NCBI GenBank assembly: GCA_022538095.1
Contig: JAKYXN010000048.1
Span: 1-40,961 of the forward strand
DNA length: 40,961 nt
Source: Puniceicoccaceae bacterium K14
Lineage (GTDB): Bacteria; Verrucomicrobiota; Verrucomicrobiia; Opitutales; Opitutaceae
Direction: 5' to 3'
Below are positions 34,124 through 38,066 of the stretch, one piece after another. Each line of letters starts with the position of its first letter. Within the stretch, counting starts at the first letter, position 1. The notes under the pieces are model-generated. The model searched no databases, was not told the origin of the DNA, and saw only the letters and a program-made list of their open reading frames with translations. Made by a program: the position numbers and the translations under genes.

Positions 34124-34551
34124 TTGAAAGCGTATCAAAAATTACAGTTCGCTATGCAGAAACAGATGCCATGGGCATCGTCTACCATGCTAATTATATG
34201 CCCTGGTTAGAAATCGGCCGAACTCAACTGCTCAAAGAAATTGGTTTTCCTTACAAACAACTGGAAGAAGACAATCTCCTGCTGCCTGTTCTCGAAATCA
34301 ATCTTAAGTACAAACGACCTGCGAAATACGATGACGAAATAACTGTCATCACTCAGTTCAAAGAAAAACCTCTAGTTAAGATCCATCTAGACTACCAAGT
34401 CAAACGAGGCGAAGAGCTGCTCGCCACCGGCTATAGCGTCCACGCATTCATGAATCGCGATGGCCAACCGCTCAAGGCGCCGCGCCACTTCATCGATTCG
34501 ATTGGTCACATATTAGCAACCCGCCAACAAGCTCAACAAGCAGCCCAATAA
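34120..34551 (+). CDS. YbgC-like acyl-CoA thioesterase (4HBT hot-dog)
   Basis: 143 residues from the ATG at 34120, which overlaps the glycosyltransferase stop as ATGA; an in-frame start within the previous gene is not credible. The family signature is RYAETDAMGIVYHANYMPW, with the catalytic aspartate in ETDAMG and the YHANY block, followed by EIGRTQLLKEIG. It hydrolyses acyl-CoA or acyl-ACP thioesters; E. coli YbgC belongs to the Tol-Pal gene set, but no tol or pal gene is here. Its 3' end overlaps the convergent queG by 19 bases. Confidence 0.87.
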   Translation: MIESVSKITVRYAETDAMGIVYHANYMPWLEIGRTQLLKEIGFPYKQLEEDNLLLPVLEINLKYKRPAKYDDEITVITQFKEKPLVKIHLDYQVKRGEELLATGYSVHAFMNRDGQPLKAPRHFIDSIGHILATRQQAQQAAQ

Positions 34552-35753
34552 GCATACTCCTCGAGTACCGTTGCATCGCTTTCATTTGCACGGATGTCAG
34601 CTAAGAGTTCCGCTGCTCGAACTCCATCCATCAACCGATACAAAGCCCAAACGGCATGTACCCGAACCATGGATTCATCATGGCTCGCTAAATCCTTGAG
34701 GGCTTCCGTAACCGAAGTATAAAACGCGTTTTCTTCGGACTCTTCCATACCAGCCGGAAGCCACTCCTTATCGTCACGCAAATTCCCTGCTACGATACAG
34801 GCATTTCGCAGCAGCCCCCTCAATTTCAATCGCTTCACTGGCATTTTACGAAAAGTCTCACGAAACGTTTCCATATCCATTCGCAAAATTTCTAGCAAGC
34901 TCAAGTCCACCACCCCGTAGCGTTGTGCCAAAAGCATTTGCCTCCCCTCCTTCGCAAATCGATTCCACGGGCAAATATCCAGGCAAATATCGCAACCAAA
35001 AATTCGGGTCCCAATCGGTTTCCTTAGTTCTCTCGGAATTATGCCTTTGTTTTCGATTGTTTGATACGATATACAACGATTCGCGTTAATCATCCCTGGT
35101 TGAGCAATCGCGTTCGTCGGACAAGCATCCATGCAGCGGGTACATTTGCCACACAGCAACCCCAACTCGGTTCTATCACCCGATCGCGTTTCCGTGTTTT
35201 TCTTTCGAAGAGGTAAATCCGGCTCAATATCTAGACGCACCAGAATCGTAGCCAAAAGTAGCCAGTTCCCGTGAGTTTTGGAAATCAACATGCCGTTCTT
35301 GCCTTGCCACCCCATTCCAGAGGCCGCTGACCAACCACGTTCCATAACCGGTCCTGTATCCACATAATAACGATAATCACGCGGCCCCAGATCGAACTTC
35401 TCCTGCAACAACGCGCCAGCCGCTTTTACGCCCTTCAAAACAGTATCATGGTAATCCAAATACAGACTATATTTGCCCCAACGTTTTTGTTTAGATGCAT
35501 CTTCCCTCTCCGGAGGCAAATAGTTAACCCCGAGCATTATCGCCGAGCAGGCCCCTTCCAACACGAGATCTGGGTTTTGCCGTTTTTCGATGGAATTTCT
35601 CAACCATTCCATATCAGCATGGTAGCCTAACTCCACCCATTCTTGCAGCCGCGTGTTACTGATTGGTTCTAGAGTCGTAAAACGAGCTTCGTCAAATCCC
35701 AGTTCAAACAACTCCTTCCGAAACGAATCCCGCTCTTCGCTCCCTAGCCTCAT
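34533..35753 (-). CDS. queG: Epoxyqueuosine reductase
   Basis: 406 residues, a cobalamin-dependent enzyme that makes queuosine from epoxyqueuosine in tRNA with two [4Fe-4S] clusters. The clusters are bound in CGKCTRCMDACP and GCDICLDICPWN (Cys-x2-Cys-x2-Cys-x3-Cys pairs). The N-terminal half holds the cobalamin/substrate region (YVDTGPVMERGWSAASGMGW, GKNGMLIS), and the C-terminus is helical HEAT-like. I chose ATG 35753 since it overlaps the aroK stop as ATGA; the TTG at 35759 adds only two residues. It is the second gene of an aroK-queG pair. Confidence 0.94.
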   Translation of the reverse strand: MRLGSEERDSFRKELFELGFDEARFTTLEPISNTRLQEWVELGYHADMEWLRNSIEKRQNPDLVLEGACSAIMLGVNYLPPEREDASKQKRWGKYSLYLDYHDTVLKGVKAAGALLQEKFDLGPRDYRYYVDTGPVMERGWSAASGMGWQGKNGMLISKTHGNWLLLATILVRLDIEPDLPLRKKNTETRSGDRTELGLLCGKCTRCMDACPTNAIAQPGMINANRCISYQTIENKGIIPRELRKPIGTRIFGCDICLDICPWNRFAKEGRQMLLAQRYGVVDLSLLEILRMDMETFRETFRKMPVKRLKLRGLLRNACIVAGNLRDDKEWLPAGMEESEENAFYTSVTEALKDLASHDESMVRVHAVWALYRLMDGVRAAELLADIRANESDATVLEEYAYWAAC

Positions 35754-36286
35754 TTCCAATACTTAGATTCCAACTTATAAGAACGACAAATGTGGCTCAC
35801 CACATCAGCGATTGTTCTATTGTCTGTCAAAATCTCCGCTCCAACCTGCTTATAAATTGGCTCACGAATCGATAACATTTCTCGAATTTTCGCCAAAGGA
35901 TCTTCCACATTGAGCAAAGGCCTATTCGTATTGTTCTTAGTGCGTTCAAAGATCGTTTCGGCAGACGCAAGCAAGCAAATAGCTGGGCCTTTCGACTTCA
36001 CCAAATCAAGCATTCCTGGCTGGACGACAAGACCCCCGCCACAGGATACCAAACACCCTTCAACTGGGTGTCCCTTCTCAATGAACTCGCGCTCCATCAT
36101 CCGAAAAGCGGCCTCGCCCTCCGTTTCGAATAGCTTCGCAATCGACATCCCGATCTTTTCCTCGATCGCGTGATCGCTATCAATAAACTGAAACCCAAGC
36201 TTCTGAGCTACCTGTCTTCCAATGGTGCTCTTACCGGTTCCCATAAAACCGACTAAATAAAGATTAGGCTGCTTCTTTTTCGTCAT
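35750..36286 (-). CDS. aroK: Shikimate kinase
   Basis: 178 residues from the ATG at 36286, which starts just before the ATP loop; longer starts would add 35 unlike residues. It phosphorylates shikimate in the chorismate pathway. The P-loop is LVGFMGTGKSTIGRQVA, shikimate is bound through FIDSDHAIEEKIGMSI and the FRMMEREF segment, VSCGGGLVV is the second shikimate-contacting motif, and RPLL plus IREMLSIREPIYKQ close the lid and core. It is translationally coupled to queG and divergent from the MnmC-like fusion gene. Confidence 0.94.
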   Translation of the reverse strand: MTKKKQPNLYLVGFMGTGKSTIGRQVAQKLGFQFIDSDHAIEEKIGMSIAKLFETEGEAAFRMMEREFIEKGHPVEGCLVSCGGGLVVQPGMLDLVKSKGPAICLLASAETIFERTKNNTNRPLLNVEDPLAKIREMLSIREPIYKQVGAEILTDNRTIADVVSHICRSYKLESKYWK

Positions 36287-36413
36287 TCTTTGCTCTGCTA
36301 TAAATCTATCTAAACGCTGAGGTCTAAAAAATATCGAAACAAGAGCAAGAAGGTAATCCCTGCTGCACTTAGATTGACGCATTCCAAACAAGCCGTAACC
36401 TAACCAAGCTTAC

Positions 36414-38066
36414 ATGAGTAAAACGCCTCTAGATGCCATTATTGTCGGATTCGGACTCGCTGGATCTATTCTCTCTGAACAACTCAAGCGACGCGGCAAA
36501 CGATTCATAATCATCGACAATCCGCAAAAATCGCTATGCTCTCGCGTAGCCGCTGGGCTAATAAACCCCATAGGCGGCAAACGCATGAATCTCGTATGGA
36601 AAGCAGCTGATTTCATCCCATTTGCAATAGACTACTATGAGACTCTCTCCGAAGCTTCCGGTATCGAAGTTTTCAAAAAACGCCCAATTGCTCGAATTTT
36701 CAAAGACGAGCACGAACAAGCTGCTTGGAAAGCTAATCTAGAGAAGTCCAACTTTGAAGAGTGGGTACTACCCCTGGACAAAGAATCCGTTCCAACTATT
36801 TTTGCAAAAGAGCAAATAGATGGATTCTCAGTAAAAGACTCTGGTTTCTTGGATACAAATGCGATGCTCAATCATCTAAAAACAGAATTTCAACCAGTTC
36901 TTTTAGAAGAAGATTTTGACTACAAGAAACTCGAAATTTCCAGCAATGATATCCGCTACGGCTCCCTGTCTGCGAAAAATATATTTTTCTGCGAAGGTCA
37001 CTTAGCCACCAATAATCCATTTTTCGATTACGTCCCATACAAACCAGCTAAAGGAGTCATCGGAACGATTAAAACTTCCCACAAACTCGGACAAACCATC
37101 GTACTCAAAGGCAAATTTGCTATTCCGCTCGAAGACTATACAGTAAAAATAGGGGCCACTTACGCTTGGAATGACCCAAGCGACGAACCAGATCAATCAA
37201 GCATTGAGGAACTGGAAGCTTTCTTAAACCAGAACTTCGGTTCCGATTGGGAATGGATCCAATACCAAGCGGGTGTTCGCCCCTCAACTGCCGGAGCCTA
37301 CCCCGTCGTCGGGCCATCGCGAGCTTCTGGTCGCATAATCGCCTTTAACGGGTTCGGCAGCAAAGGTGCCATGCAAATTCCCTACATGGCGAATGCGTTG
37401 ATAGAATATGTCTTTGATAATAGATCGCTTCTCAAAGAATCCCACCCAGCTCGATTCGACAAAAGCAAGAAGCCCGAACTAAAACGCTGGAGAGCAACCG
37501 ATGTCGCTCGTGAGTGCAGCCTGCAAGCTATTGGCCCCGGCTCTATAGTTATTGACGCCACTGCCGGCAACGGCAACGACTCCCTCTGGATTGCAAATGC
37601 GGTTGGTCCAAGTGGCAAGTTGTACGTCTTCGACATACAAGAAATGGCCATCGCAAATACAAAGAAGCGACTGAGTGAGGCCGGTACCCCTTGTCCAACA
37701 GAGTACTTTCAAGCCGGCCACGAAACCCTTATTGAAAAAATCCCCTCCGCACATCACCGCGAGGTCGATCTCATCGTGTTTAACCTAGGATACCTACCTG
37801 GTGGTGATAAGGCGCTTATCACAAAAGCAAACACAAGTATCGATGCTCTAGAGCAATCTCTCCAAATCCTAAAACCAGGCGGCCTGCTAACCGTAGTCCT
37901 TTATCCAGCCCATCCAGGCGGGCAGGAAGAAGCAGTCACCATTCTCAATTGGACAAAATCACTGGACGCTCAAAATTTTGAAACTCGAATCGAAAACCAC
38001 CCTACCGGAATTAAAACATCTCCAATCCCAATATTCGTAGTCAAACTTAACCCAAACCACCCTTAA
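36414..38066 (+). CDS. FAD oxidoreductase fused to a YtqB/MnmM-type methyltransferase (MnmC-like)
   Basis: 550 residues with two complete domains. Residues 1-340 are a DAO-type FAD oxidoreductase: dinucleotide loop IIVGFGLAGS (9-18), SRVAAGLINPIGGKRMNL, and FAD-contact GVRPSTAGAYPVVG (287-300) then NGFGSKGAMQIP. Residues 355-546 are a class I SAM methyltransferase like B. subtilis YtqB (MnmM): TDVARE, motif I VIDATAGNGNDSLWIA (379-393), YVFDIQ, VFNLGYLPGGDK (455-466), LKPGGLL and YPAHPGGQEE. In E. coli, MnmC converts cmnm5U to nm5U by an FAD domain and then to mnm5U by a methyltransferase. In B. subtilis the separate MnmL and MnmM do this. Fusion of the two activities fits that role. It is alone, 127 bases from divergent aroK. 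Confidence 0.88.
   Translation: MSKTPLDAIIVGFGLAGSILSEQLKRRGKRFIIIDNPQKSLCSRVAAGLINPIGGKRMNLVWKAADFIPFAIDYYETLSEASGIEVFKKRPIARIFKDEHEQAAWKANLEKSNFEEWVLPLDKESVPTIFAKEQIDGFSVKDSGFLDTNAMLNHLKTEFQPVLLEEDFDYKKLEISSNDIRYGSLSAKNIFFCEGHLATNNPFFDYVPYKPAKGVIGTIKTSHKLGQTIVLKGKFAIPLEDYTVKIGATYAWNDPSDEPDQSSIEELEAFLNQNFGSDWEWIQYQAGVRPSTAGAYPVVGPSRASGRIIAFNGFGSKGAMQIPYMANALIEYVFDNRSLLKESHPARFDKSKKPELKRWRATDVARECSLQAIGPGSIVIDATAGNGNDSLWIANAVGPSGKLYVFDIQEMAIANTKKRLSEAGTPCPTEYFQAGHETLIEKIPSAHHREVDLIVFNLGYLPGGDKALITKANTSIDALEQSLQILKPGGLLTVVLYPAHPGGQEEAVTILNWTKSLDAQNFETRIENHPTGIKTSPIPIFVVKLNPNHP

Follow-up and report, generated by a model that had tools for sequence, protein, structure and literature searches.

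Among the described enzymes closest to the protein considered here is MnmC of Escherichia coli (MnmC2-MnmC1), which joins the two reactions proposed for the fusion and whose oxidase is likewise of the DAO fold. In Bacillus subtilis and Staphylococcus aureus the methyltransferase is MnmM (YtqB), a separate protein, and the enzyme now proposed for the carboxymethyl-arm step in Gram-positive bacteria is MnmL (YtqA, TIGR01212), which would remove the arm before MnmM acts. Jaroch 2024 reportedly gives this radical SAM protein as the oxidase-step partner of MnmM, and its abstract is said to mention fusion proteins of some kind. A further relative is the glycine oxidase ThiO, which has the DAO fold and uses FAD to oxidise a glycine-like arm.

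MnmL is listed in a table of the review PMC12548931. Cho et al. 2023 (PMC9976899) describe the MnmC(o)-like enzyme of MnmM organisms as unknown, state that Bacteroides and others have orphan mnmC(m), and report that an MnmC-like fusion or operon, which they had expected among the genes common to three Gram-positive species, was not found.

The gene reported here lies in a window of 40,961 nucleotides (that is, the whole stretch of DNA analysed) from Puniceicoccaceae bacterium K14, and encodes a DAO domain joined to an MnmM domain. Very probably the product is a bifunctional tRNA wobble-uridine enzyme, predicted to take cmnm5(s2)U34 through nm5(s2)U34 to mnm5(s2)U34. It differs from E. coli MnmC in that the order of the two activities is opposite, in that its methyltransferase is MnmM in place of a PF05430 protein, and in that its oxidase falls below the cut-off of the MnmC1 model TIGR03197. 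It differs from the MnmL-MnmM system in that the partner of MnmM is a flavoprotein and not a radical SAM enzyme; the reference to B. subtilis MnmL in the first-pass annotation of this DNA needs correcting on this point, MnmL being a radical SAM protein and no DAO. No DAO-MnmM fusion is reported in the titles and abstracts of the literature searched, which does not show that it is absent from print, and priority of description is unsettled.

Domain architecture of the fusion

The protein has a real DAO-then-MnmM architecture (Table 1). A Pfam scan places DAO (PF01266) at residues 7-331 with 73.4 bits against a cut-off of 27.9, and PF06962 at residues 404-537 with 128.4 bits against a cut-off of 22.7, while the NCBIfam model for MnmM, NF053511, covers residues 361-544 with 177.8 bits, above its cut-off of 135. 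Neither PF05430 nor a radical SAM domain is matched in the Pfam scan of the protein. The first-pass annotation, made from the letters alone, had thus named both domains correctly and had seen that their order is the reverse of that in MnmC. It had also located the FAD loop at 9-18 (GFGLAG at 12-17), the second FAD contact stretch GVRPSTAGAYPVVG at 287-300, motif I of the methyltransferase VIDATAGNGNDSLWI at 379-393 and FNLGYLPGGD at 456-465, all of which stand where it put them. In the AlphaFold model (mean pLDDT 90.3, pTM 0.64) the sole weak stretch, residues 352-357, is interdomain; each domain is well predicted and, given the pTM, their placement relative to each other is unsure.

Table 1. 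Coordinates in the window of the fusion gene, its domains and motifs, and its divergent neighbours
Feature	Position	Strand	Remarks
DAO-MnmM fusion gene	36414..38066	+	single uninterrupted ORF, ATG start, 550 aa
FAD-dependent DAO domain, proposed MnmC(o)-like oxidase	36414..37466	+	residues 1-351; Pfam match 7-331
GxGxxG dinucleotide-binding loop	36447..36464	+	residues 12-17, GFGLAG
Family motif VAAGLINP	36546..36569	+	residues 45-52
R289 (= E. coli MnmC R567)	37278..37280	+	104/104 family rows
GSKG	37356..37367	+	residues 315-318; basic residue 317, cf. MnmC1 GSRG/GARG
Linker	37467..37493	+	residues 352-360; low confidence at 352-357 in AlphaFold model
MnmM methyltransferase domain	37494..38045	+	residues 361-544; NF053511 177.8 bits
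SAM motif I	37548..37592	+	residues 379-393, VIDATAGNGNDSLWI; contains D389 (= D34 of B. subtilis MnmM)
FNLGYLPGGDK	37779..37811	+	residues 456-466; N457 (= proposed general base N101), Y460 (= Y104)
YPAH	37902..37913	+	residues 497-500; Y497, H500 (= Y141, H144 of B. subtilis MnmM)
QueG (epoxyqueuosine reductase), divergent neighbour, outside enzyme	34533..35759	-	PF08331
Shikimate kinase, divergent neighbour, outside enzyme	35750..36391	-	PF01202

The oxidase half

What kind of oxidase has been joined to MnmM? With the NCBIfam models the N-terminal half scores 62.7 bits for MnmC1 (TIGR03197, cut-off 174.2) and 51.6 bits for ThiO (TIGR02352, cut-off 250.8), and lies below both of these, the nearest two among the curated models. 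Alignment to E. coli MnmC equates G12, G14, G247 and G318 with G271, G273, G518 and G619, and with R289 the oxidase half, on the same DAO fold, holds equivalents of all the MnmC1 residues tested (G271, G273, G518, R567 and G619); most of these cofactor-site residues are also common to other DAO enzymes. In a table of PMC3648344 G518, R567 and G619 carry an FAD-binding label and G271 and G273 a SAM-binding one, the latter being taken here as a misprint because these two glycines sit in the GxGxxG loop of the FAD domain.

Within the family, G12 and G14 are present in all 104 rows, as is an arginine at the position of R289, which is found too in 6/6 MnmC1 rows, in both ThiO rows and in DadA; because ThiO and DadA share it, R289 alone is no pointer to tRNA. 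On the substrate arginine in glycine oxidase a literature search yielded nothing. At residue 317, lysine or arginine stands in 102 of the 104 family rows, in 6/6 MnmC1 rows and, in what is a small reference set, in 0/8 of the other DAO references, which include two ThiO rows; the GSKG region reads YRNG and YRHG in the two ThiO rows compared. The motif VAAG[LIVM]INP was given up as independent evidence of family membership, since it had itself served to fetch 80 of the 104 rows (80/80 carry it) and is present in just 11 of the remaining 24; it occurs in 0/14 reference DAO rows.

Fold comparison does not separate the candidates. Foldseek matches of the N-terminal half are glycine oxidases and MnmC, with sarcosine oxidases among them as well, and VIA-align leaves glycine oxidase (4ysh, Z 35.1) and E. 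coli MnmC (3ps9, Z 34.5) tied. In the trees the DAO family is a well-supported clade of its own. A quick tree of 118 rows has the family (104 rows, SH-aLRT 94) adjoining MnmC1 (6 rows, 99) with a join support of 86, and a careful tree of 41 rows recovers the family (27 rows) at UFB 100 / SH-aLRT 98 and sets it, together with MnmC1, apart from ThiO and the remainder at UFB 94 / SH-aLRT 88. The sister of the family is either MnmC1 or an alternative, in that constraining it to group with ThiO of rhizobia, or else with the remaining oxidases of the 41-row tree, gives p-AU 0.35 in each case and rejects neither. The fusion had been described in the first-pass annotation as a non-orthologous counterpart of MnmC, a description which is right for the methyltransferase half; the oxidase half shares its fold and its cofactor-site residues with MnmC1 and adjoins it in the trees, with the ThiO placement not rejected.

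The tie in fold with glycine oxidase and the tolerated ThiO placement (p-AU 0.35) speak for a quite different explanation, in which only the methyltransferase half belongs to the mnm5U pathway, nm5U arises directly from MnmEG and ammonium, and the DAO domain is a glycine, sarcosine or D-amino-acid oxidase that has been fused for some other reason. MnmEG can indeed use ammonium, according to the pertinent parts of PMC3936742 and PMC3648344. This explanation is nevertheless unlikely, for the family forms its own clade at full bootstrap support, and its distribution, which is considered below, argues against it as well.

Linkage of the DAO family to wobble-uridine methyltransferases

The phylum sample consisted of 383 genomes, with at least 90% completeness requested, in which matches were accepted at E <= 1e-20 for MnmM, E <= 1e-20 for the DAO profile A1 and E <= 1e-7 for PF05430; the rows of A1 come from the host's family and order only. 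MnmM was found in 74 genomes (34 of 192 by genus), the DAO family in 100 and PF05430 in 107, with none of the three in 195. The DAO family is present in every one of the 74 MnmM genomes as against 26 of the 309 without MnmM (Fisher 3e-57, with kinship ignored), and 40 of the MnmM genomes fall outside the order from which all the profile rows were drawn, that of the host. The two genes are fused in 5 of the 74; in 20 the DAO lies directly upstream on the same strand with the matches <= 127 bases apart, in 2 more the pair falls within 2.8 kb, and in 47 the genes are apart or on different contigs. A TIGR01212 protein also occurs in 5 of the 74, which counts against a simple account of the pairing.

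A second collection, the named loci, came from a single pattern drawn from eight closer DAO rows, with the best 80 of 542 related stretches kept, and for this reason it shows spread and not frequency. Among these 80 the fused ORF occurs in 12, all Verrucomicrobiota as judged by title or tree label. MnmM follows immediately after the DAO gene in 17 (15 proteobacterial, 2 Verrucomicrobiota) and lies within about 1.2 kb of it in 4 more, all proteobacterial, the same pair being seen in Zeta- and Gammaproteobacteria. PF05430 was tested in 46 of the 80 genomes. It is absent from 24 of the 25 that have DAO and MnmM (18/19 proteobacterial and 6/6 with the fusion; the exception scores 29.5 bits). Of the 18 Bacteroidota with DAO whose 3 kb flanks hold no MnmM, 17 contain it on its own in a frame of 219-257 codons, and one of the three remaining genomes contains it too. 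The loci L246-L253 and the Bacteroidota loci among L113-L178, in which DAO accompanies a lone MnmC2, offer a candidate for the missing MnmC(o).

Co-occurrence and gene adjacency in several phyla strongly support the placing of the DAO partner in the MnmM pathway, as had been argued from the pairing alone. An amino-acid oxidase of ordinary metabolism is made less likely by the occurrence of DAO in 74 of 74 MnmM genomes, by its fusion or adjacency to MnmM in both Verrucomicrobiota and Proteobacteria and by its pairing with a lone MnmC2 in Bacteroidota, although the trees leave that reading standing. The favoured view, that the DAO half acts on the wobble uridine, may extend beyond the fusion. 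The family is probably a general MnmC(o) enzyme, as yet unnamed, for which two unrelated methyltransferases are interchangeable partners: it would serve MnmM where it is fused or adjacent to it in Verrucomicrobiota and Proteobacteria, and would serve an orphan MnmC(m) where it lies beside one in Bacteroidota and in further Verrucomicrobiota, a Tgt-MnmC(m) fusion being among these cases.

Alternative enzyme combinations in the phylum

Enzymes of the pathway are also joined in other ways within the phylum. From other families 15 PF05430 loci were fetched (L230-L244). Six of them (L230-L235) align with E. coli MnmC over both of its halves, L230 being Methyltransf_30 plus DAO by Pfam, and nine match the methyltransferase half only, at their C-terminal ends. 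The three of these that were scanned, L236:73-1977 (+), L238:1318-3048 (-) and L243:1471-3267 (-), read Radical_SAM, Radical_SAM_C and Methyltransf_30. Across the sample, 66 of the 383 genomes have a TIGR01212 frame of at least 520 codons together with a PF05430 match (three such frames were Pfam-scanned), and none of the 66 has either DAO or MnmM. A fusion of a TIGR01212-type radical SAM protein with MnmC2 is apparently common elsewhere in the phylum. In the host's own family the two frames scanned, L046:1315-3276 (-) and L045:1330-3279 (-), join Tgt to Methyltransf_30. Such a fusion of Tgt (queuine tRNA-ribosyltransferase) with MnmC2 puts two wobble enzymes, for G34 and U34, on one chain, and a stand-alone DAO is also seen in six genomes with a Tgt-fusion-like PF05430 match (G004, G017, G025, G027, G029 and G034). 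The first-pass annotation had supposed that a bifunctional enzyme was built twice; with the radical SAM-MnmC2 and Tgt-MnmC2 fusions in the same phylum, that number is too low.

Less easily fitted to a simple account are the 26 of 100 DAO-positive genomes that are without MnmM, which comprise 15 with a PF05430 match and 11 with neither methyltransferase. Two of the 11 (G100 and G166) are weak DAO hits of 80 and 92 bits, three (G189, G235 and G338) have MnmM-bearing relatives within their own genera, and G393 is the only member of its own genus code. The remaining five, G007, G019, G212, G223 and G314 (two of which are represented by L097 and L101), come from the host's family, are of high completeness and have DAO and neither MnmM nor MnmC2. 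In the 118-row tree the branches of the G007 and G019 DAO rows are longer than those of most rows nearby, and the six frames scanned within the 1.5 kb flanks of these two DAO genes include no methyltransferase.

These eleven genomes, two of them weak, could be read as a sign that the DAO half works in the same pathway at another step or on another set of tRNAs, for instance as a demethylase from mnm5U to nm5U or on some isoacceptors, with the fusion serving to tune the mark, and DAO-fold enzymes do include N-methyl amine oxidases (sarcosine oxidases are among the fold matches). Such a role is improbable, more so than that of an ordinary amino-acid oxidase, because the family pairs with two unrelated methyltransferases and is absent from the 66 genomes with a long-frame radical SAM protein and PF05430, a pattern that a step before methylation fits best.

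The methyltransferase half

In B. subtilis MnmM the residues D34, N101, Y104, Y141 and H144 have base-binding or catalytic roles according to the part of PMC9976899 that treats them. Alignment to that enzyme shows their equivalents D389, N457, Y460, Y497 and H500 all to be present in the window protein, and in the same order the letter is kept in 20, 19, 16, 19 and 18 of 20 MnmM domains from the host and its relatives and in 17, 16, 11, 16 and 14 of 17 aligned fusions. Among these fusions Y460 is replaced by F in four, which are Pelagicoccus-like and in which an aromatic ring would therefore remain, by H in one and by R in one, while H500 is changed in three, in two of them to R; the Pelagicoccus mobilis homologue has F in place of Y460. 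PMC9976899 also describes a contact made by Q163 of the second protomer of B. subtilis MnmM, and the alignment puts this position near A519 of the window protein. By Foldseek the C-terminal half superposes on 8h0s, a crystal structure of B. subtilis MnmM in complex with an anticodon stem-loop, with a target TM of 0.93 at 37% identity. The predicted methylation of nm5U to mnm5U by this half is well founded, resting as it does on close homology to an assayed enzyme that it joins above the equivalog cut-off with the catalytic residues kept.

A distant DAO-MnmM fusion in genome G012 (L095:871-2547, minus strand) has lost the equivalents of N457, Y460, Y497 and H500 and scores 103 bits, below the cut-off of 135; its methyltransferase half is perhaps inactive or functionally altered. 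Decay does therefore occur in the lineage, but that the host's own fusion should be inactive or degenerate is scarcely credible, with its ORF intact, its MnmM score over the cut-off and D389, N457, Y460, Y497, H500 and R289 all kept.

Distribution and genomic neighbourhood

The host genome (G000), a 5.7 Mb draft that is 97% complete, encodes MnmE (358.6 bits against a cut-off of 252.6). The first-pass annotation had asked for a test of the absence of canonical mnmC and of separate mnmL and mnmM. In searches of this genome no second MnmM passes the cut-off (the next match, at 24.9 bits, is far below 135), PF05430, the mark of an MnmC2 domain, is matched nowhere, and for MnmL the best TIGR01212 match reaches 27.1 bits against a cut-off of 180; this radical SAM model also matches in E. 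coli and hence is not specific for MnmL. The host holds 18 further DAO matches, all weaker than that of the fusion and mostly short.

The architecture is seen again in Opitutaceae/Pelagicoccus. In a sample of relatives made up of 57 genomes (the host, 36 other genera of its family and, from elsewhere in the order, one genome per family for 20 families), which overlaps with the named loci, MnmM is over the cut-off in 19 with one extra at 103 bits; 7 of these 20 MnmM-bearing genomes, the host included, have the fusion, and all 20 have a DAO match. The fused ORF is no assembly artefact, for it is seen again and again, in 12 of the 80 named loci, among them Pelagicoccus isolates (L106 and L108) and a MAG contig labelled as a chromosome (L105), and in 7 of the 57 genomes of the relatives' sample. 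Several independent fusions, which would have been extra evidence, were not established: by parsimony the fusion state changes twice on the quick tree, and a single fused clade is not rejected (p-AU 0.68 with 118 rows and 0.22 with 41).

Upstream and divergent from the fusion, 10 of the 12 named fusion loci carry QueG and 11 carry shikimate kinase; L114 and L140 are truncated by contig ends. With QueG in this pair of neighbours (window 34533-36391), a gene for queuosine (G34) stands beside one for U34. None of the three neighbours scanned is a thiamine gene.

Proposed function and implications

In the proposed mechanism, MnmE-MnmG would make cmnm5(s2)U34, the N-terminal FAD domain of the fusion would oxidise the C-N bond of its carboxymethyl-amine (glycine-like) arm as MnmC1 does, and water would then release glyoxylate to leave nm5(s2)U34, the freed amine of which the C-terminal MnmM domain would methylate with SAM to give mnm5(s2)U34. 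The oxidation step is attributed to the DAO half from its fold, residues and context. In the portion of PMC9976899 concerned with substrate choice MnmM follows a U33-U34-U35 rule, from which the main targets of the fusion are predicted to be tRNA Gln, Glu and Lys.

The combinations described here suggest a two-step pathway built from interchangeable parts, with two kinds of first-step enzyme (flavin and radical SAM) and two methyltransferases. The fusion acts as a Rosetta stone, in that it ties a testable flavoprotein family to the oxidation step in Verrucomicrobiota, some Proteobacteria and Bacteroidota. For a step that is without an assigned enzyme in many bacteria, its oxidase half is a promising candidate and, if the family is indeed a general MnmC(o), the gap described in PMC9976899 and cited at the outset would be closed in part.
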